Positions 20,184 to 59,171 of a DNA stretch of 59,270 nt are shown here, in pieces. The notes below the pieces were generated by a model. That model did no database searches. It saw nothing but the letters and a program-made list of their open reading frames with translations, and was not told where the DNA came from. The position numbers were made by a program, and so were the translations under genes. The stretch spans positions 1 to 59,270 of the IMG/VR virus record IMGVR_UViG_3300005096_000097; one strand, written 5' to 3'. The stretch comes from a virus. How positions within the stretch are numbered: the first letter of the stretch is position 1; each line of letters begins with the position of its first letter.

Positions 20184-21536
20184 ATGCGTACTTCAAGTAC
20201 AATCAAACTCTATGCGGCAGGTGGTGCCGTAATTATTGCATTACTACTCGGACTTGGCGTCTTCTTTGGAGCCGTCGGTTACAATGTTGATCAGAATTAC
20301 CAAGTTGTCCAAGGCGTCACCGGCTCTGTCCGTATCCAGGACAAACCAGGTTACTACTACAAAGGCTTTGCGACGATTACCAATTATCCTCGGACCCTCG
20401 AAGGCGCCTATTCGGCACACCCTCTCGAAGGGGACCCCACGGATACTTCGATTCGCGTTACATTCAATGATTCGGGCACCGCTCAGGTTTCGAGTTATGT
20501 GAAAGTCCAGATGCCATCAGACCCTGTGAAACGGCGTAAGTTGCATCAAGATTTCCAAGGTAACTTCGCGAGTATCAAGGTTGCAATTCGAGCCCACCTC
20601 GTCAATTGTATCAAAGCCAGTGGACCTGTGATGTCCGCGTCAGAGAATCAAGCCTCTCGTAAGGCCGAGTTCAACCACATTGTGGAAGCTCAGCTTGCCA
20701 ATGGTCTCTACAAGATGCGTAGAACGAAGATCACACTCGATGATTTGACTGAGATTGTTGACGCAGGTGTCGACAAAGACGGGAATCGGGTTACTAAAGA
20801 GAAGAAGGCTGTTGTGAATGCCACACAGATTGTCAACAACAAAGATGGACAGCCCATCGTTATCCAGACGTCGCCACTGAAATCCTACGGTATCACAATC
20901 ATGCAGTTCTCGATCACCGAGACCCAGTATGATGAAGCTACCCTTCGGCAGTTTGCCGCTAAGAAAGAGTCTTACCTCAATGCCGAGAAGTCAAAAGCTC
21001 AGCGACAAGAAGAAGTTCAATCCCGTCTGATGATCCAAGAGAAGGGTCGCCGCCAAGTCGCGGAGATTCAAGCTGAAGAGAATCAGAAGAAGGAACGTGC
21101 TTTGATTCAGGCTACCCAGGCTGAAGAAGTTGCCGAGATCGCCAAACGTCAGGCAGTTATTGCTGCGGAACAGCGAGTCGAGGTTGCCTTGCAACTGAAG
21201 ACTGAAAGTGAAACGCTTCGAGACATCGCGGGAATCAACGCTGAAACGGCTGAGCTTGATAAGAAAGCTGTTATCTCGTCTGCCGAGGCTCGACAGCAGG
21301 AGATCGAAATTGGCGGTGGTATCACTGAAGCCCAGCGTGTCCTTGCTGAGATTAAAGCAGACAGAGATGTCAAAGTCGCTATTGCACTCGCCAAAGTCAA
21401 GACACCTGGTGTCGTGATGGTTGGCGGCGGTGGTTCTGGTGGGAGCGGAAACGTCATGGAGAACCTCATCAACATGTGGTTGCTGAAATCCAATGGTATT
21501 CTGGAACCTGTTGTCGAAGACGCAGATGATGAATAA
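20184..21536 (+). CDS. SPFH/band-7 (stomatin/prohibitin-like) membrane protein
   Basis: A 450-residue protein. Membrane helix at about 9-32 (LYAAGGAVIIALLLGLGVFF), SPFH-like beta/alpha domain about 35-260 (YQVVQGVTGSVRIQDKPGYY, SYGITIMQFSITETQYDEAT), then a long Ala/Glu/Lys coiled coil (about 265-405) and a Gly-rich tail. This is the flotillin/HflK-like order. Such proteins form large membrane rings. Their presence in a phage is unusual; a role in shielding or remodelling the host membrane is inference. A strong terminator follows, so it is well isolated from the next unit. Confidence 0.75.
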   Translation: MRTSSTIKLYAAGGAVIIALLLGLGVFFGAVGYNVDQNYQVVQGVTGSVRIQDKPGYYYKGFATITNYPRTLEGAYSAHPLEGDPTDTSIRVTFNDSGTAQVSSYVKVQMPSDPVKRRKLHQDFQGNFASIKVAIRAHLVNCIKASGPVMSASENQASRKAEFNHIVEAQLANGLYKMRRTKITLDDLTEIVDAGVDKDGNRVTKEKKAVVNATQIVNNKDGQPIVIQTSPLKSYGITIMQFSITETQYDEATLRQFAAKKESYLNAEKSKAQRQEEVQSRLMIQEKGRRQVAEIQAEENQKKERALIQATQAEEVAEIAKRQAVIAAEQRVEVALQLKTESETLRDIAGINAETAELDKKAVISSAEARQQEIEIGGGITEAQRVLAEIKADRDVKVAIALAKVKTPGVVMVGGGGSGGSGNVMENLINMWLLKSNGILEPVVEDADDE

Positions 21537-22515: not shown

Positions 22516-23085
22516 TTGGAAGTCCTCAACTACCCACACCCATCTCTACGATTCAAGACTCATCAGCTCCTACGAGTTGATGACCACATCCGCAACGTCG
22601 CTGCCAAAATGGCGGAAACGATGGTTTCCGAACAAGGTGCCGGCTTGTCTGCCAACCAGGTTGGATTACCCTTCAGTATGGTCGTCGTTAAGATCGACAA
22701 AGACAACGAGGCCGCGTTCATTAACCCGGTGATTAAACCCTTTGGAAAGATTGAGTCGAAGCTCGAAGGCTGTCTCTCACTCCTTGACTGTGAGCCTATC
22801 CGGGTGAAGAGACATACGAAAGTTCGGTTGACTGCTTGGGATTTGTATGGCAACAACCTAGATGAAGTGTTCACTGGTCCAATGGCTCGTGTGCTCCAGC
22901 ATGAGTGTGATCATCTAAACGCAATCTTAATCAGTGATAAGGCCGATGCCACTCAGGCAAGGCAAATTGCTCCTTACCTTCGAGAATGTGAAGCTGCTTG
23001 GAACAAGTATCCTCAGCTCATCCACGCCGAGGAATTTAATTCGCTCCTGGAGGCATATTGTGGTGTGAAGGTGCCAGTGGCATAA
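22516..23085 (+). CDS. def: Peptide deformylase
   Basis: A 189-residue protein, TTG start with AGGAG 7 bases upstream. All three motifs are present: GAGLSANQVG (about 41-50), EGCLSLLD (about 83-90) and QHECDHLNAIL (about 128-138, the HExxH metal site). It removes formyl groups from new proteins. Phage deformylases are known from marine viruses and are thought to sustain protein maturation during infection. The C-terminal helix after the HECDH motif is longer than in minimal forms. Confidence 0.85.
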   Translation: MEVLNYPHPSLRFKTHQLLRVDDHIRNVAAKMAETMVSEQGAGLSANQVGLPFSMVVVKIDKDNEAAFINPVIKPFGKIESKLEGCLSLLDCEPIRVKRHTKVRLTAWDLYGNNLDEVFTGPMARVLQHECDHLNAILISDKADATQARQIAPYLRECEAAWNKYPQLIHAEEFNSLLEAYCGVKVPVA

Positions 23086-23314: not shown

Positions 23315-23556
23315 TACCTCTGAGCGTGGTCATCCTTCTAATGTTGGCAACTGTCGCGTGTACCACAGCCTATCTGGAGTATGCGGATAAGCAACTCCTC
23401 GCGACCGCCATGAAATCGAAAACAACCGGGAGATGCGAGGAATTGAAGTGTCCATACCCTCGGCTACCTGGGAAACCCTGGTGTGAGGGTCACGAACTAC
23501 GTAAACGTTTTCAAATCCCTGAGGTTCCCGTACAGGATAAGGATTTAGACATATGA
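23311..23556 (+). CDS. Small membrane-anchored Cys/His protein, paralog 2
   Basis: An 81-residue protein. Membrane helix about 3-20 (PLSVVILLMLATVACTTA), then CEELKCPYPRLPGKPWCEGH, and end DKDLDI, parallel to the previous gene's end KDLDT. Overlaps both neighbours by 4 bases (ATGA). A membrane-tethered zinc mini-protein is the best description. Confidence 0.6.
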   Translation: MIPLSVVILLMLATVACTTAYLEYADKQLLATAMKSKTTGRCEELKCPYPRLPGKPWCEGHELRKRFQIPEVPVQDKDLDI

Positions 23557-24407
23557 GACTGATTTATTTGCATGGTCAACAGGAAGACGACCGAGTCGAC
23601 CACATCACATTCCCAACCGGTGAACAGCACATCCGTATCCGTGGCTTGGAAGCCGGTGAGGATGTAACCATCGTTTACAACGAACCCTCGGGTCGCGACC
23701 TCATAAAGCTAGGTCTTGCGGTCAATATCTGTCGCCGGGCTCGGGTTGGCTCCATGACGCTCGTGATGCCCTTCATCCCGTATGCCCGACAGGACACTTG
23801 TTTCGTCGAGTCCGATCCACTGTCCATCGATGTGTTCGCTCGGTTGTTGAACACCTTTGAGTTTGACCGGGTCCTTGTTGCGGACCCACATTCTCTGGTG
23901 AGCCCAGCTCTTATCAGGAATGTTGAGGTCATTCACCAGCATGAGATTGCCGCAGCAGCAGTAATGGATTTGGTAGAGAACCTTAGTGATCCCATCGCTC
24001 TGGTTGCTCCGGACTTAGGGGCAGCAAAGAAGATCAAGAAGCTTCAGCAGTATCTCGCTGATACAGAAGACATCCTGTTACCAGTAATCCAGTGTGACAA
24101 GACCCGGGACCCAGTGACGGGTAAAATCACTGGGTTCAAGATACTGGATGGGGACCCGGACGACCCAGTTGCCCATCATTGCATTATGATCGATGATTTG
24201 GCCGACGCAGGAGGTACATTTCTGGGACTTGCGGACGTTATCCAACAAGCAGGAGCCTCCGGTCAGTCGCTTTACGTCACCCATGGCATATTCTCGAAGG
24301 GGACAGATCACATTGTCGAGAAGTTCTCCCATGTATACGCAACTGGGTCATTCAAGGCCCAACCAGGTGTGATTCTGGTTAAAATCCGCTCGGAGTATTA
24401 TGTCTAA
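23553..24407 (+). CDS. Ribose-phosphate pyrophosphokinase-like protein (candidate NARP1 Adps)
   Basis: A 284-residue PRPP synthetase-family protein. It keeps FPTGEQHIRI, PFIPYARQD, SDPLSIDVFARLL, ADPHS and the PRPP loop MIDDLADAGGT (about 211-221). Family enzymes make PRPP from ribose-5-phosphate and ATP. In phages, Prs-like proteins paired with NAMPT-like proteins were described as NAD+ reconstitution pathway 1, where the Prs-like Adps makes ADP-ribose pyrophosphate instead. A NAMPT-like gene lies 3.7 kb downstream in the same run. Substrate choice cannot be read from motifs. Confidence 0.75.
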   Translation: MRLIYLHGQQEDDRVDHITFPTGEQHIRIRGLEAGEDVTIVYNEPSGRDLIKLGLAVNICRRARVGSMTLVMPFIPYARQDTCFVESDPLSIDVFARLLNTFEFDRVLVADPHSLVSPALIRNVEVIHQHEIAAAAVMDLVENLSDPIALVAPDLGAAKKIKKLQQYLADTEDILLPVIQCDKTRDPVTGKITGFKILDGDPDDPVAHHCIMIDDLADAGGTFLGLADVIQQAGASGQSLYVTHGIFSKGTDHIVEKFSHVYATGSFKAQPGVILVKIRSEYYV

Positions 24408-25041
24408 AGAAACCATCACCATCTCGCGAAAAGCGTACAAAGAACTGCAATACTACCAGAATCTGGTAGAATCTCTGCGCAATCTTGGTGTTTCTCAGTG
24501 GGAACTTTACGAACTAGCCGTTAGTATGGCAGGCGAGTGTGGACGTCCCCAGGATGTAGAGACGGCTGAATCTCTCACGGAGAAGGCTCGCCGTCTCCAA
24601 GCTGAGGGGCGGCGGCGTGAGGCAGGACATTCGGATGAAGTTCCAACACTGGTGACAAACGAATCCCTTGTCAGTCCAGAGCAGGCGGCTCTGTGGGAAG
24701 CGAAGAGAAGCTCAAAGAACTCAACGAGAGAAAACCATCCGATGATTCCAAATGACCAAAACAACCCAGGACCCGCCCGCGCGCCCCATGATGTGCGGGA
24801 CAATCAGGCGACAGGCTATTGTGAGTCCCACCCAGTTCATAACCAGGGGCGGACCTTAGAGGTTCAGGACACCAATGATCCCCTCAGAATGGTGGAAGTG
24901 AACAAAGGACTCCTTGACAAACTCGTGGAGGATAGTAAGCTTCTAGCAGCAATGCGTCGGCATGGCGTCCACCACTGGGACGGCTATGCTTACGCGGTCG
25001 AGTACGTGTATTTCAAAGATGGTAAGAAAGATGCCAGATAA
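24400..25041 (+). CDS. Protein with two 'GVxxWxGY' domains
   Basis: A 213-residue protein. An N-terminal domain (about 5-42: LVESLRNLGVSQWELYELAV) and a C-terminal domain (about 170-200: LLAAMRRHGVHHWDGYAYAV) share the pattern found in the next three genes. The middle is a charged, disordered linker rich in Glu, Arg and Pro. It is the largest member of a tandem family. Start overlaps the PRPP synthetase stop by 8 bases. Function unknown. Confidence 0.55.
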   Translation: MSKETITISRKAYKELQYYQNLVESLRNLGVSQWELYELAVSMAGECGRPQDVETAESLTEKARRLQAEGRRREAGHSDEVPTLVTNESLVSPEQAALWEAKRSSKNSTRENHPMIPNDQNNPGPARAPHDVRDNQATGYCESHPVHNQGRTLEVQDTNDPLRMVEVNKGLLDKLVEDSKLLAAMRRHGVHHWDGYAYAVEYVYFKDGKKDAR

Positions 25042-25222
25042 GATAATATCTGAGGAGTCTTACAAAGTTCTCTGCTTTAATCATCACCTTCTGGAGAGCT
25101 TGTATACCTATGGTGTGCAAACCTGGGAGGGCTACAATGACGCCTTCAATAAGGCACGCGAGAACTACCATGCCCCAGGCGGTGATCAGATTCCAGGCAT
25201 ACCACCCAAGGAGGTGGTATGA
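25031..25222 (+). CDS. Single-domain 'GVxxWxGY' protein
   Basis: A 63-residue protein (MPDKIISEESYKV...) with LLESLYTYGVQTWEGYNDAF at about 20-39. It ends with DQIPGIPPKEVV, which is repeated in the next gene as DQIPGITSKEVG. A clear recent tandem duplicate. Function unknown. Confidence 0.6.
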   Translation: MPDKIISEESYKVLCFNHHLLESLYTYGVQTWEGYNDAFNKARENYHAPGGDQIPGIPPKEVV

Positions 25223-25410
25223 AAACAGTAACGATACTGAAGGCAGACTACAAAGGCTACCTCTTTGCGACCCGAATCTTGAACAGTTTGTATCATAATG
25301 GCGTACGCGATTGGGAAGGGTACGATGAAGCCTTTAACACTGCATGTGAACAGCACGAAGCCGCAGATGACGACCAGATTCCAGGCATAACATCCAAGGA
25401 GGTGGGATGA
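25219..25410 (+). CDS. Single-domain 'GVxxWxGY' protein
   Basis: A 63-residue protein, MKTVTILKADYKG then ILNSLYHNGVRDWEGYDEAF and DDDQIPGITSKEVG. Same length and layout as the preceding gene, with ATGA junctions on both sides. The N-terminus (TVTI...Y) matches the next gene too. Function unknown. Confidence 0.6.
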   Translation: MKTVTILKADYKGYLFATRILNSLYHNGVRDWEGYDEAFNTACEQHEAADDDQIPGITSKEVG

Positions 25411-25802
25411 ACACAGTAACGATACCCGAGACGGAGTACATGGTACTCCAAGAGGCTGCTCACTACCTGTTCGCACTCGAAGATCATGGGGTGGTTACTT
25501 GGGGCGGACACAATGAGGCAGCCAATCAGGCATCAATTAACATTGCCTCAGGTATCCCTCTAAAGGAGTTGTATTCTAGGAAGATGGGAATGGACCCCAC
25601 TCAGGAGATTGGGGATTGTACCTACCAGTACATCGTGGCTTCCGAAGCGACGCCAGCTATGGTTTCAATTCCGGAACTACAGTACAAACGTTTCCAGTCT
25701 GACCGGGCACTGATGGAGGAGATGTTCAAACAAGGGCTGGATGAGTGGTACGGCTACTCGGCTGCAATTGTTGCCTTAACAGACCGAGGCGTTGAATTAT
25801 GA
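25407..25802 (+). CDS. Two-domain 'GVxxWxGY' protein
   Basis: A 131-residue protein with two copies: MNTVTIPETEYMV... LFALEDHGVVTWGGHNEAAN (about 1-40) and MVSIPELQYKRF... MEEMFKQGLDEWYGYSAAI (about 85-122). Each copy has the order 'T/S-V-T/S-I-P-E-x-x-Y, helix, GVxxWxGY, helix'. Fusion or internal duplication of the single-domain form. Function unknown. Confidence 0.6.
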   Translation: MNTVTIPETEYMVLQEAAHYLFALEDHGVVTWGGHNEAANQASINIASGIPLKELYSRKMGMDPTQEIGDCTYQYIVASEATPAMVSIPELQYKRFQSDRALMEEMFKQGLDEWYGYSAAIVALTDRGVEL

Positions 25803-27440: not shown

Positions 27441-28091
27441 GTGGGAAGAGGCGAGACTTACAAGTATGATTACAGCCCCGGGACGAAGTACGGGAAGCTC
27501 ACGATTGTGAAGTGGGAGAGGCCCTATGTCATTTGCGACTGTGATTGTGGAAACAAGGGGAGTACGCACCACTCACGAGACGTTAGTAACGGGAATACCA
27601 AATCATGTGGTTGCTTAGCAAGTGGAGCTGGTGCAAGTAACTTCAACCATCGACATGGGCAGTGTCGGACACGGGTGTATCGTATCTGGTGTGCCATGAA
27701 GTCCCGGTGCTATAATGAGAAGGTGCCACACTACAAACATTATGGTGGTCGCGGGATCACAATTTGTGAGGAGTGGCTGGGTCCCAAGTGTTTTGAAGTG
27801 TTCCAATCATGGGCTCTCGCCAATGGGTACAAGAAGCATTTGTCAATTGACAGAATTGACAATGACAAAGGGTATAGTCCAGCAAATTGCCGGTGGGCTA
27901 CCCAGAAAGAACAGACAAACAACCAACGCCCAATGCGGAGCACAAACACCAGCGGGTTCAAAGGTGTGTATGCTACCAAGTCGAGTACAAGCCCATGGAA
28001 CTCCCGGTACAAGGGTAAGTACATTGGCTGCTACAAAACAGCAGAAGACGCAAACGAAGCCTATCTCCTTTATTTAGAAAGTCTTGAATAA
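27441..28091 (+). CDS. HNH endonuclease with AP2 DNA-binding domain
   Basis: A 216-residue protein, GTG start. It has Cys-rich N-terminal knuckles (CDCDCGNKGS, KSCGCL), an HNH-like core (YGGRGITICEEWLG, LSIDRIDNDKGYSPANCRWA, about 90-155) and a C-terminal AP2 domain (SGFKGVYATKSSTSPWNSRY... IGCYKTAEDANEAYL). This is the layout of phage free-standing homing endonucleases. It sits between the paralog array and the NAMPT-like gene, with paralogs on both sides, as expected for an inserted selfish gene. Confidence 0.8.
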   Translation: MGRGETYKYDYSPGTKYGKLTIVKWERPYVICDCDCGNKGSTHHSRDVSNGNTKSCGCLASGAGASNFNHRHGQCRTRVYRIWCAMKSRCYNEKVPHYKHYGGRGITICEEWLGPKCFEVFQSWALANGYKKHLSIDRIDNDKGYSPANCRWATQKEQTNNQRPMRSTNTSGFKGVYATKSSTSPWNSRYKGKYIGCYKTAEDANEAYLLYLESLE

Positions 28092-29560
28092 TGCCTAACT
28101 TACTTGTAAGCACTGACGACTATAAAGTTCAGCATAAAGAAATGATGGTTCCGGGGACCAACAAGTCCTACTCATATTTGGAATGTCGAGGGTCCCGCAC
28201 AGATGGTTTAGATTACTCTGTGTTCTTTGGGCTTCAATACTACCTGAAAGAGTACTTTAGTCGGGCAGTCACCCACTCAGATGTGGACCATTTAGAACGA
28301 ATCCTTAACCATGTCAATGGTCCTGGATCTGTGAATATGCAGAAGTTCCGCGACTTAGCTGACCTCGGCTATCTGCCCTTGAGAATTAAGGCAGTCCCTG
28401 AAGGGACCGTCATGCCTCTTAAACATGTTATGCTCACTTTAACAAACACTGATCCTGACTTTGGCTGGTTCGTCCAGTATGTTGAGTCACTCCTCCTTAA
28501 AGTGTGGTTACCTATTACAGTCGCCGCAAACTCCTACAGATTCTTTAGAATGTTCTCAGGACTTGCTCAAAAGTCAGCCGGACACACGGACTTTGTCCCG
28601 TTCCAGATGCACGACTTTGGGTATCGAGGTACAGACAGCGATGAAGCGGCCCGGATTGCTGGTGCTGCCCACTTGCTATCCTTTACGGGCACCGACAATC
28701 TCCCCGCTGTCGATTTTCTCATGCAGCATTATGATGCAGGGAATTGTGACCGACCCATTGGACTCTCGGTCCCGGCGAGTGAACACTCGGTCATGTGTAC
28801 ACACAGCACAGACAACGACGATAAATCTGCTATCAAACATCTCCTGGACAATTTCCCGTCAGGTATAATATCCGTAGTCAGCGACACCTATGATTTATTT
28901 AAGGCAGTTGGTCAATACTACAACATTGATTTCCACGACCGAATCATGGAACGTGATGGCAAGTGGGTCGTTCGACCGGACAGTGGTGACCCGCCAAACA
29001 TTATCTGTGGTGATCCTGCTGGCGAGACAATTGAAGAGCAAATGGGTGTTGTTCGCCTCCTTGAGAAGGGATTTGGCTCCACAACCAACGAACTTGGCTA
29101 CAAAACCCTCGATCCTCATGTCGGTTGCCTCTATGGGGACGCTATCTTCTACGAACGCGCCCAGCAGATTCTCAGCCGCTTGATGGGTATGGGCTACAGC
29201 ACCGAGAACATCCTGTTCGGAAGCGGAGGCTTACTACTTAACAACTGGTCCCGCGACACACTGGGCATGGCACTCAAAGCCACGTACTGTGAAGTCAACG
29301 GTGAACCAAGACCCGTCGAGAAGAAGCCGAAGACGGACACGACTAAGACGTCCAAGAAGGGTCTACTCAGATTGGAACGATACCAAACCGAACTGGGGAC
29401 TCAATACAAGACCCTCCAGAATGTCACCCCAGAACAGGAACAGGGCGGCATCTTGGAGACTGTCTTCGAGGACGGTAAGATTCTACGATTCCAGAACCTC
29501 GATCAGGTTCGAGACACACTTGAGTCTAACGAGAACAAGCCAGCGGGGTTACTAGTCTAA
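28091..29560 (+). CDS. nadV: Nicotinamide phosphoribosyltransferase-like protein (NadV; candidate NARP1 Namat)
   Basis: A 489-residue NAMPT-family protein. Visible are DDYKVQHKEMMVPGT near the start, QMHDFGYRGTDSDEAA (about 174-189), SVPASEHSVM (about 228-237), VVRPDSGDPPN (about 291-301) and FGSGGLLL (about 377-384), all classical NAMPT landmarks. The family joins nicotinamide to PRPP; in NARP1 the Namat version joins it to ADP-ribose pyrophosphate, giving NAD+ directly. The upstream Prs-like gene supplies the partner. Motifs do not distinguish the two versions. Confidence 0.85.
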   Translation: MPNLLVSTDDYKVQHKEMMVPGTNKSYSYLECRGSRTDGLDYSVFFGLQYYLKEYFSRAVTHSDVDHLERILNHVNGPGSVNMQKFRDLADLGYLPLRIKAVPEGTVMPLKHVMLTLTNTDPDFGWFVQYVESLLLKVWLPITVAANSYRFFRMFSGLAQKSAGHTDFVPFQMHDFGYRGTDSDEAARIAGAAHLLSFTGTDNLPAVDFLMQHYDAGNCDRPIGLSVPASEHSVMCTHSTDNDDKSAIKHLLDNFPSGIISVVSDTYDLFKAVGQYYNIDFHDRIMERDGKWVVRPDSGDPPNIICGDPAGETIEEQMGVVRLLEKGFGSTTNELGYKTLDPHVGCLYGDAIFYERAQQILSRLMGMGYSTENILFGSGGLLLNNWSRDTLGMALKATYCEVNGEPRPVEKKPKTDTTKTSKKGLLRLERYQTELGTQYKTLQNVTPEQEQGGILETVFEDGKILRFQNLDQVRDTLESNENKPAGLLV

Positions 29561-52615: not shown

Positions 52616-52644
52616 TTGACTTCCTCGATTTGGTGTGGTACACT
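52616..52644 (+). promoter_or_regulatory. Rightward sigma70-type promoter (duplicated unit)
   Basis: TTGACT, 17-base spacer ending GATTTGGTGTGG, TACACT. The same text occurs near 51481 and 54220, so gene-plus-promoter units were copied. Drives the NUMOD4 endonuclease gene. Confidence 0.6.
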
Positions 52645-52689
52645 TCAGGTGTACAATTTATTCTGGAGACACACTGGGGGACTGGTCTG

Positions 52690-53700
52690 ATGGTGGAAGA
52701 AGAATCTTGGAGAGATGTGGTTGGGTTTGAGAAACTGTACCATGTCTCAGACTGGGGACGGGTAAGGTCACCCGATCGTCAGATTCGGGCGACGTGTGGT
52801 AGCCAACGATTTTGTGCTGGTCGGATACTTACCCCTCACAGGACGGGCAAGTCCCGGATAAATGTGGTCCGCCTGTCTCGGGAGGGGAAGCTGTACATCC
52901 TCGACACCGAGGACCTGGTGCTGGAAGCTTTCGTAGGGCCTCGCCCGCCGGCTTGTATTGCTCACCACATCTCGGACGACCCGTATGATGTGCGGTTTGC
53001 CAACCTCGAATGGATGGTTGACCCCAACTATGCAGCGATACGATTGGCTCAGTTAGAGAAGGAGAGCCGGAAAGCCAAACGTGAGGCAACCCGACGTGAA
53101 GCAGCCCAACGGGACGCTGTCCGACTATCCGCAGCCCGACAAATTGCAACACTGCTTGGAGCCACTTCGTTCTCTGAGTCTAGATACCGGGAAGCCTGGG
53201 GTTGGGGAGCCTGTCAGGTTTTTAATTGGGGTACCCTACTTGCTGAATTGGAATATGGGGAGGTCCGGGAGCCCAAGAAGGATGCAGCCACGAAGTTGGT
53301 GAAGCCCAAGAAGCCCATAGCCACAAAGTTGGTGAAACCCAAGCAGGTCAAGCAGGTCAAGCAGGTCAAGCAGGTCAAGCAGGTCAAGCAGGTCAAGCAG
53401 GTCAAGCAGGTCAAGCAGGTCGCGCCGACCCCAGAACTGATAGCCAAACGGAAACGAATGGCTGTTGAGTACACACGGGAGTGGCGTGCCAACAAGAAGA
53501 AGGCAGCCGAACTACTCGCATCCGAACACTGGAGTGCTAAACTGGACGCAAAGTACACAGTGATGCGGGATGACGGGATCGAGTTTGATAATTACGCGGA
53601 GGCTGGTCGGGTTGCAGGCGCGACGCCGGCGGAGATCAGTGATGCGTGTGAAACTGGAGAGCTTCTTCTAGGGCACCAGTGGGCTCAGATAAGTGTGTAG
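52690..53700 (+). CDS. NUMOD4/HNH/NUMOD1-type endonuclease with KQV repeats
   Basis: A 336-residue protein, start MVEEESWRD. The N-terminal NUMOD4 motif (WRDVVGFEKLYHVSDWGRVR) precedes an HNH-like region (CIAHHISDDPYDVRFANLEW, about 92-111), a long charged helix, KQV repeats (about 216-243) and a C-terminal NUMOD1-like motif (DDGIEFDNYAEAGRVAGATP, about 294-313). This is the modular plan of phage homing endonucleases. It splits two close paralogs (52150 and 53737), as expected from insertion. The HNH seems to lack the usual third motif residue, so activity is uncertain. Confidence 0.7.
   Translation: MVEEESWRDVVGFEKLYHVSDWGRVRSPDRQIRATCGSQRFCAGRILTPHRTGKSRINVVRLSREGKLYILDTEDLVLEAFVGPRPPACIAHHISDDPYDVRFANLEWMVDPNYAAIRLAQLEKESRKAKREATRREAAQRDAVRLSAARQIATLLGATSFSESRYREAWGWGACQVFNWGTLLAELEYGEVREPKKDAATKLVKPKKPIATKLVKPKQVKQVKQVKQVKQVKQVKQVKQVKQVAPTPELIAKRKRMAVEYTREWRANKKKAAELLASEHWSAKLDAKYTVMRDDGIEFDNYAEAGRVAGATPAEISDACETGELLLGHQWAQISV
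53341..53421 (+). repeat. 9-bp tandem repeat encoding KQV
   Basis: Nine copies of AAGCAGGTC, almost perfect, giving a Lys-Gln-Val repeat inside the endonuclease gene. Confidence 0.95.
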
Positions 53701-54707: not shown

Positions 54708-54946
54708 TGGAATGGCTCAACAGAGTGGATGGTATGTGGTGGGGGTTTGGTATGGCCCTGATGTTCTGGGGTATCAACTCCGCCAGGCATTCAGTAGCAT
54801 GTATCATCAATACACGGAAGGGTTTACGGACCGAGGCTGACTTCAGTCTGGACCGCGCGGAGATATCCCTTTGCTATCTGATCGTGGGTGTTTTGATATC
54901 TCTTATCGTGTTTCAGCTTGTTGGGGGTACATTATTGCGTGGTTGA
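54707..54946 (+). CDS. Two-helix membrane protein
   Basis: A 79-residue protein. Helices at about 9-27 (GMWWGFGMALMFWGINSARH) and 54-74 (SLCYLIVGVLISLIVFQLVG). TGATG coupling to the previous gene. Function unknown. Confidence 0.5.
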   Translation: MEWLNRVDGMWWGFGMALMFWGINSARHSVACIINTRKGLRTEADFSLDRAEISLCYLIVGVLISLIVFQLVGGTLLRG

Positions 54947-55655
54947 AATCTGGAAGGACATCAAGGGTCACGAGGGTGCCTATCAGGTCAGTGATATGGG
55001 CCGCGTTCGTTCGCTGGCGCGGAGGGTGACTCGTAGTAATGGTTACCCCTATACGGTCAGGGCAAAGGTACTGAAGCCCTGCCCATCTTCAAGTGGCTAC
55101 TTAGCCGTTTGCCTACACAATGAGGGTGAAGACACAACGCAACCGGTAGCCTCCCTCGTGCTTACGGCATTTGTAGGCCCTCAACCATATGCAAAACATG
55201 CGTGTCACAAGTCATTAGGGAGACTGAACAACAGCCTGGGCAATCTATACTGGGGCGCCAGGGTGTCGACCGCATTAGGCAAACGGATCCACCCCGGGAA
55301 AGTTTATCTCCGACCGGTAGTGCGGAGTGATGGGGTTGAGTATGCCAGTGTTAGGCTGGCCGCCCAAGCAATGAAAGGGTCTGAGTCTGCCATTGGCAAC
55401 TGCTGTGCAGGTACGAGTAAGACCTCATATGGGTTTGGTTGGGAATATGCGGACGTAAAGGTCCTGCCCAAGAGGGGTACCAAGGGTCTCCGACCAGTTA
55501 TCCGGAGTGATGGGGTTCAATTTGAGAGTGTGGCCAGTGCCGGGCGGGCAGTTGGAGTGACTCCCGGCTGTATTGGCAGGGCCTGTACGAAACCTGAGAA
55601 CACCTCTGGTGGCTTCGGATGGAAATACGTGGACGCGGACGACTCAGAGAATTGA
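54939..55655 (+). CDS. NUMOD4/HNH-like/NUMOD1x2 endonuclease-like protein
   Basis: A 238-residue protein, GTG start with GGGGG upstream. NUMOD4 motif EIWKDIKGHEGAYQVSDMGR VRS, an HNH-like stretch HACHKSLGRLNNSLGNLYWG (about 85-105), then two NUMOD1 repeats (VVRSDGVEYASVRLAAQAMK and VIRSDGVQFESVASAGRAVG). The HNH has lost clear catalytic His residues; it could be a degenerate, DNA-binding-only relic. Last rightward gene before the repeat region. Confidence 0.65.
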   Translation: MVEIWKDIKGHEGAYQVSDMGRVRSLARRVTRSNGYPYTVRAKVLKPCPSSSGYLAVCLHNEGEDTTQPVASLVLTAFVGPQPYAKHACHKSLGRLNNSLGNLYWGARVSTALGKRIHPGKVYLRPVVRSDGVEYASVRLAAQAMKGSESAIGNCCAGTSKTSYGFGWEYADVKVLPKRGTKGLRPVIRSDGVQFESVASAGRAVGVTPGCIGRACTKPENTSGGFGWKYVDADDSEN

Positions 55656-58222: not shown

Positions 58223-59068
58223 CTATGATCCGGTGTGGCTCGCGAATCGGAAACCGTAGCCAGCAGTTTGTCGGGTTGCCCCTCGGCAAACAGACTCGAC
58301 AAAATGGGGCCGCCGCTTAATAGCCAAACCAGCATCAAACAAGGAGGAAAATCGTTTCCCGTCTGATCGGATAACCGGAATTGGCGGATCCTCTGGTTTC
58401 CCTACTTTTGGGGTCTTAATAAGTACCTCTAGTGGGGTCCAAGGTTCACCCCCGCATTTATTGGCATACTTAAAGCCGAAACCCTTTATATTCGCGCGTT
58501 TGCCCTTGCAAACGCTCGCTATGGTGGTTGCCCGTGAATCTACGGAATCGGCGGCCTTAGAGAGGCTAGGGAACAAAACGCCATCTGATCGGTATATCGG
58601 AAACGACGTACAGGGTATGGAACCAATGTCCCATGCCTCCCCATTGCAAGACTCGGCAAACTTGAAGCCGAAACCTCGTAAACTATGCTTTTTACCGGTA
58701 CAAATCCGATATACCTCATTTTCATAACCCCCTGTAAGCCGGGCAGCCTGTCTTACACTGGGGAACCGAACGCCATCCGATCGATAGACGGTGTGGCCCT
58801 CGCCAGTGTCGCCCGGTTTATTTAATGTGGGAATGTCCCAACGGAGGTTAACAAGCCGATTATCTGTATTCACGCCGTTGCAATGCTGGCAAGCGTAGTC
58901 AGTTGGGCAGGGCCCTCTGAATGTTTCGAGCACTAGGTGATCGATTCGGCACCCATCGACGAATAAGAATTGATTATCCCCAAAATAGGGGGCAAGCATA
59001 GCCACCCCAATGCGAACACGCCCGAGGTCAGATACTTGGCGGCCCTCTATGTCTTCCCATGTTTCCAT
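58223..59068 (-). CDS. NUMOD4/HNH-like/NUMOD1x3 endonuclease-like protein
   Basis: A 281-residue protein, start METWEDIEGRQVSDLGRVRI (an upstream ATG at 59137 lacks support). A shortened NUMOD4 motif is followed by an HNH-like region DYACQHCNGVNTDNRLVNLR (about 57-76). Three NUMOD1-type repeats follow: YRSDGVRFPSVRQAARLTGG, YRSDGVLFPSLSKAADSVDS and IRSDGKRFSSLFDAGLAIKR, each followed by 'GfGFkfA'. Related in plan to the gene at 54939. It is flanked by about 60-bp direct repeats. Homing or relic endonuclease. Confidence 0.7.
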   Translation of the reverse strand: METWEDIEGRQVSDLGRVRIGVAMLAPYFGDNQFLFVDGCRIDHLVLETFRGPCPTDYACQHCNGVNTDNRLVNLRWDIPTLNKPGDTGEGHTVYRSDGVRFPSVRQAARLTGGYENEVYRICTGKKHSLRGFGFKFAESCNGEAWDIGSIPCTSFPIYRSDGVLFPSLSKAADSVDSRATTIASVCKGKRANIKGFGFKYANKCGGEPWTPLEVLIKTPKVGKPEDPPIPVIRSDGKRFSSLFDAGLAIKRRPHFVESVCRGATRQTAGYGFRFASHTGS

Positions 59069-59171
59069 AGTTTCTAGTCTAGTTGGGCGGCCCCCGGTCG
59101 TCAAGCATACCCGAATCGAGTACCCTAGAATCGGCATATTGGAGAATCGGCGGGTGGTTGCCAGAATAAAT

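Follow-up and report, generated by a model that had tools for sequence, protein, structure and literature searches.

The window, by which we mean the whole stretch of DNA analysed here, is a virus contig of 59,270 bases that may be a fragment. Its minus strand carries capsid, portal and terminase genes, and its plus strand small genes. Four plus-strand ORFs with overlapping stop and start codons (24400-25041, 25031-25222, 25219-25410 and 25407-25802; genes 1 to 4 below) carry six diverged copies (c1 to c6) of a module of about 45 residues. Gene 1 (213 aa) holds c1 (24400-24537, with GVSQWELYELA at 24487-24519) and, after a linker of approximately 110 residues, c2 (24871-25014, with GVHHWDGYAYA at 24964-24996), which is nearest to gp5.9 of phage phiYeO3-12 (18 of 36 residues identical). 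Genes 2 and 3 (63 aa each) hold c3 and c4, respectively, followed by the tails DQIPGIPPKEV and DQIPGITSKEV. Gene 4 (131 aa) holds c5 and c6 (25653-25799, with GLDEWYGYSAA at 25734-25766); c1 and c6 were delimited by copy alignments and the family profile described below. The original prediction had placed six copies in four genes, one copy each in two of them and two each in the other two, directly after a Prs-like gene, and all of this agrees with what we find. The upstream neighbor is a Prs-like gene for ribose-phosphate pyrophosphokinase (23553-24407, plus strand; PHROG 619, E 6.7e-71), and a NAMPT-like gene lies downstream (28091-29560, plus strand; PHROG 448, E 1.3e-151). Elsewhere in the record are a phage peptide deformylase gene (22516-23085; PHROG 2890, E 2.9e-25) and an HNH endonuclease gene (52630-53700) with two further paralogues in the window, at 54918-55655 and 58223-59137 (minus, near contig end).

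Several comparisons indicate that the six copies are one module. All 15 copy-to-copy local alignments gave z values of 5.3-16.4, with scores that were reached by at most one of 500 shuffles each. A family profile built from 81 outside modules, with no window row in it, found exactly six window copies (domain E 3.4e-9 to 4.6e-5); a seventh copy sought in the window with this profile was not found, the next match having an E of 0.64. With all six reading frames of the window considered, the pattern G[VL]..W..[YH]..A was present six times, compared to a mean of 0.07 and a maximum of 2 in 200 shuffles, although this test is post hoc because the loose motif was derived from the same six copies. In the alignments, the window copies have the module end G-V/L-x-x-W-x-x-Y/H-x-x-A together with an N-terminal strand and a helix.

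Part of the array is a tandem DNA duplication with a unit of 188 nt (25092-25440, plus strand), in which the 161-nt copies 25092-25252 and 25280-25440 are 71% identical. This direct repeat takes in the start of the gene behind it, along with that gene's ribosome-binding site. The tail DQIPGI..KEV, which had been reported as shared by neighboring copies, is real in genes 2 and 3 and lies, at the DNA level, within the repeat; moreover, the codons for KEV double as the Shine-Dalgarno sequence (AAGGAGGT) of the gene that follows. Conservation of the tail is therefore attributable in part to a translational signal and to recent duplication. A weaker version, SGIPLKEL, follows c5 in gene 4 and precedes a linker and c6, and this vestigial tail suggests that gene 4 arose by fusion of two former genes.

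The duplication is not confined to these genes. An all-against-all comparison showed that, between 21592 and 54707 on the plus strand, paralogous small genes form about ten tandem clusters: first 21592/21872/22196, 23090/23311 and 25971/26456/26700 (47-60% identity; also 29562), and then 40952/41155, 44600/44926/45300/45763, 49615/49994/50214, 50518/51007/54270 and 52135/53737 (50%). A general duplication tendency is therefore likely in this genome, and the whole early region looks to have been built by repeated gene duplication. The module array is one case of this genome-wide habit. Hence, the tandem domain expansion itself was borne out, while its description as an independent event is doubtful. 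The abundance of clusters, together with a loss of acidic residues described below, could also mean that small genes were amplified at random and that the copies are drifting duplicates with no distinct function. We consider this very unlikely, given that the motif keeps its G, W and A in 6/6 copies, all frames are open, ribosome-binding sites are retained for genes 3 and 4, and the differences between genes 2 and 3 are weighted to third codon positions (12, 7 and 20 of 42, 43 and 43 for the three positions, so that, within the gene 2 part of the duplication, 20 of 39 differences are at third positions).

The domain had not been recognized in the original prediction. Both Pfam PF25708 (Phage_T7_Gp5_9, "RecBCD inhibitor") and PHROG 6234 ("host RecBCD nuclease inhibitor", category host takeover) contain the module, so that it is not new. 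Whole-protein scores against PF25708 were 47 bits for gene 1 (E 2.3e-12, in two stretches) and 36.1 bits for gene 4 (E 6.1e-9), above the Pfam cut-off of 24.5 bits, whereas gene 3 (22.6 bits) and gene 2 (21.7 bits) fell just below it. The latter two are closely paralogous to one another and to c1/c5, and both were found by the outside-only profile. PHROG 6234 matched all four proteins, with E values of 1e-13 (gene 1) to 5e-6 (gene 2, 4.9e-6). Membership of the window modules in the gp5.9-like family PF25708 is near certain.

The name of the family has to be read with caution. T7 gp5.9 scores 27.8 bits against PF25708, compared to 71.2 bits for phiYeO3-12 gp5.9. The T7 protein has the N-terminal strand and the start of the helix and lacks a GVxxWxGYxxA half, whereas in phiYeO3-12 gp5.9 the strand, helix start and GVxxWxGYxxA half are all present. 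The two are identical at 14 of 27 residues and align over T7 residues 3-30 only. Likewise, a search of solved structures with phiYeO3-12 gp5.9 returned 8b1r at 3.8e-5 over residues 6-33 only, and a profile of 87 modules, run against the PDB with E values allowed up to 10, did not retrieve any gp5.9 entry. All six window copies align with phiYeO3-12 gp5.9 (z 6.4-17.5), while for T7 gp5.9 only c1 clearly does so (z 6.0; the other five, -0.5 to 2.1); past the helix, the window copies align with phiYeO3-12 and not with T7. The GVDNWxGY module is a better description of the PF25708 type than gp5.9.

The experiments found on the family concern the T7 type. A cryo-EM study describes T7 gp5.9 as a proven inhibitor of RecBCD, with its C-terminal end seated on the RecB arm, ion pairs made by D4, D11, D15, D21, E24, E36, D38/E39 and E45, and the N-termini of the dimer braced by an antiparallel sheet (PMC9836394). 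MukBEF is also inhibited by T7 gp5.9, according to another report (PMC7617805). T3 gp5.9, which was used in a further study (PMC13192584), is of the T7 type, with 98.1% identity to T7 gp5.9 in a phage T3 record. For GVDNWxGY-type proteins, the literature searched, to the extent that its text was accessible, yielded no experiments, and the string "GVDNW" appeared in no searched paper.

One explanation of the array is that its products are acidic DNA mimics of the T7 style that block RecBCD or AddAB, with the extra copies providing dose or heterodimer variety. The database names of PF25708 and PHROG 6234 favor it, and so does the charge of the family: modules elsewhere had a median net charge of -6 over 42 residues (n = 117), compared to a median of 0 for 286 control ORFs from the same loci, and of 545 family cells at the T7 contact positions, 208 were acidic (background 0.22). 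Further points in its favor are the fusion of some modules to RecE-like exonucleases, described below, and the gene 6 exonuclease as direct neighbor of T7 gp5.9. The window copies do not fit this picture. Their module cores have net charges of 0, 0, -3, 0, -6 and -2, unlike the family (p 8e-4) and like the control (p 0.21), these p values being rough because the sequences are related. The near-neutral window copies thus do not match the strong negative charge of the T7 type. Whole proteins are at -4, -4, -5 and -11 for genes 1 to 4, which makes gene 4 an exception to the near-neutral set. Among the T7 contact positions in the shared half (D4, D11, D15, D21 and E24), 6 of 30 window cells are acidic, with an uncertain register at D21 and E24 because of a heptad difference. 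The T7-type C-terminal coiled-coil half, which carries E36, D38, E39 and E45 and binds the RecB arm, is absent from the window copies as judged by alignment. Furthermore, a YqaJ exonuclease and an SSB were sought in the window record and neither was present. Hosts do not fit well either, since a search with phiYeO3-12 gp5.9 (E up to 10) matched 495 phage records that included 48 Enterococcus and 28 Bacillus phages. Enterococcus and Bacillus use AddAB and are not known to use RecBCD. Overall, T7-style inhibition by the window proteins is unlikely, and the function label "RecBCD inhibitor" is not earned by these copies.

Structure prediction supports a helical mini-domain, as had been proposed. 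In the AlphaFold2 model of gene 3 (87 modules aligned; pLDDT 76, pTM 0.53), residues 1-7 are predicted to be extended and are followed by a helix (8-27), a loop over the motif (28-34) and a second helix (35-49). The model of gene 4 (44 rows; pLDDT 81, pTM 0.63) has strands at 3-7 and 85-89, one per copy, plus 74-76, and renders the second copy, which had no homologous alignment rows of its own, as one long helix (90-126) that lacks the break of the first. Because a strand assignment needs a partner, intrachain pairing of the two copies is a natural reading, and such pairing would echo the braced T7 dimer; the unbroken helix of the second copy speaks against it. Foldseek returned no matches with E <= 0.001 for the gene 3 model against viral models or for the gene 4 model against the PDB, and the best VIA-align match (Z 4.3, to a myosin segment) was uninformative.

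An HMM search had been suggested originally, with a lack of outside hits to count against the domain, and the family proved to be abundant outside the window. A degenerate DNA pattern for GVDNW[DEKN]GY matched at least 120 stretches in viral contigs, and among the matches listed the frame was open in all 120. In bacterial and archaeal genome contigs (257 Gb) there were 25 motif matches, of which approximately 7 are expected by chance (our own estimate, assuming equal base use); 16 of the 25 had a recognizable N-terminal half (E below 0.001), including matches in Streptomyces, Macrococcus, Xanthomonas and Sphingomonas. Seven matches (L127, L130, L133, L134, L138, L144 and L145) were omitted from the count of core charges. 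Among the 120 listed stretches, the spacing from strand to Gly was 22 in 61 and 29 in 3, none of the nine spacings tested other than these two was found, and 56 had no recognizable strand at the expected place. One heptad separates 22 from 29. The window copies belong with the 22 spacing, and their length difference from phiYeO3-12 gp5.9, which lies in the first helix, is exactly seven residues.

Copy number sets the window apart. By PF25708, one copy was found in 44/44 viral records (44 of the 120 listed stretches were submitted), and by the family profile a single copy was found at 117 of 120 loci and two at three, among the matches listed. The same PF25708 search gives five copies in the window record and our own profile six, in a comparison that may under-represent arrays because the outside set was chosen by a strict motif. 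At one two-copy locus (L083) the second copy overlaps the first in another frame. Two copies lie in adjacent genes at L047:5285-5686 and about 3 kb apart in L107.

Most modules occur in free-standing small ORFs, and the module is typically at the C-terminal end of its protein; among the matches listed, 24 of the 120 stop-to-stop stretches have the motif no earlier than residue 85. Three loci (L015, L128 and L146) encode a RecE-like exonuclease that terminates in the module and whose YqaJ domain is over the Pfam cut-off, and L135 has a homologous exonuclease cut by the locus end. Because these four exonucleases are all homologous and 5/5 other phage homologues examined (Pseudomonas, Vibrio and Shewanella phages) end differently, one exonuclease lineage has swapped its tail. 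These fusions raise the alternative that the module is a general dimerization or docking end-piece for phage proteins, enzymes included, rather than a host inhibitor, and its place at the C-terminal end of many unrelated proteins, including families with no known function, is in line with this. So is its position, in some cases and as read by eye, directly after a coiled-coil-like stretch. The alternative is unlikely in view of the free-standing state of most members and of the exonuclease homologues with other ends, which indicate that the enzyme does not need the module. In addition, T7 gp5.9 is a proven inhibitor (PMC9836394).

A link of the module to DNA-end processing is suggestive only. 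A YqaJ exonuclease was present in 4 of 45 records examined (fused in one, with distances to the module of approximately 2, 8 and 15 kb in the others) and an SSB in 2 of 45, so that a general link with recombination genes does not exist in these records. Replication genes were found among both the near ORFs of the relatives (143 of 172 collected) and the far ORFs (143 of 152); exonuclease PHROG 107 and MazG attained four members each in the near set only. Given that the far control also contains replication genes, the neighborhood says little and points to no specific partner. Direct relatives of the window phage were not found by megablast of 24 kb of the window against phages, nor in viral contigs scanned with gene 3, the Prs gene and the protein encoded at 20184-21536. 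A scan with the NAMPT gene found one record, L152, in which the 17 kb examined had no convincing module (best E 0.7). The Prs-like and NAMPT-like genes, which flank the array and its neighbors, possibly form an NAD-salvage pair. We also considered an anti-defense role for this pair of the NARP1 kind (Adps + Namat). The Namat signature of NARP1 is GS-aromatic-...-TRD (PMC12774641). The window NAMPT-like protein, the best structure match of which is 9w5x, reads GSGGLLLNNWSRD at the motif (by eye), and the NARP1 reading was rejected since the aromatic signature is absent.

The reading that we prefer, at a probability of about 0.42, is that the array is an amplified gp5.9-like set of strand-paired, host-binding modules that work without T7-style charge mimicry. 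Tandem duplication, together with gene fusion, would have expanded the array within the phage's early region. Each copy would form a short N-terminal strand, a helix, the GVxxW turn and a second helix, and the strands would join modules in pairs, with both partners on the same chain in the double-copy proteins or on separate chains. The conserved contact surface would be the GVxxWxGY end. Such small host-takeover proteins may bind host enzymes that process or organize DNA, by shape and hydrophobic contact, the acidic surface by which T7 gp5.9 imitates DNA having probably been largely dropped in the window phage. The divergence of the copies suggests more than one target or allele. A broader version is possible but doubtful: the GVxxWxGYxxA half would itself be the host-binding module, a very common one, and the RecBCD label would have been inherited from T7 gp5.9, a member that is atypical in lacking this half. 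The window phage would then carry six mostly neutral variants, two ready-made dimers among its proteins, and address several host targets.

These distinctions affect annotation, as many phage genes are named "host RecBCD nuclease inhibitor" through profile matches to this family, while typical PF25708 members do not have the half with which T7 gp5.9 takes hold of the RecB arm. If another half has taken the place of the T7-type one, the target of a module that is very common in phages can be sought directly. For separating dimerization and binding from charge mimicry, the window provides natural variants, double-copy and non-acidic forms among them.

Compared to known systems, the window array shares parts with several. 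RecE-like exonucleases with a C-terminal module (PHROG 7655; L015, L128, L135 and L146) carry the same module at the C-terminal end, but there it is fused to an enzyme, and the window record has no YqaJ enzyme. T7 gp5.9 (PDB 8b1r and 9gmb) resembles the window copies in its N-terminal strand and helix start (VTIPRDVW..), with a direct match to c1 only; it differs in its long parallel coiled coil, its lack of a GVxxWxGY half and its net charge of -8, and its contact acids are mostly missing from the window copies. All four window proteins have profile matches to PF25708 and to PHROG 6234, 4790 and 14858, whereas PF25708 members elsewhere are acidic and single-copy in the 44 records examined. 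In gp5.9 of the Yersinia phage phiYeO3-12 (T3 group; NP_072071), strand, helix and the GVDNWDGYSDA end are arranged as in the window copies, in a protein that is single-copy, has a net charge of -10 and has a helix one heptad longer.
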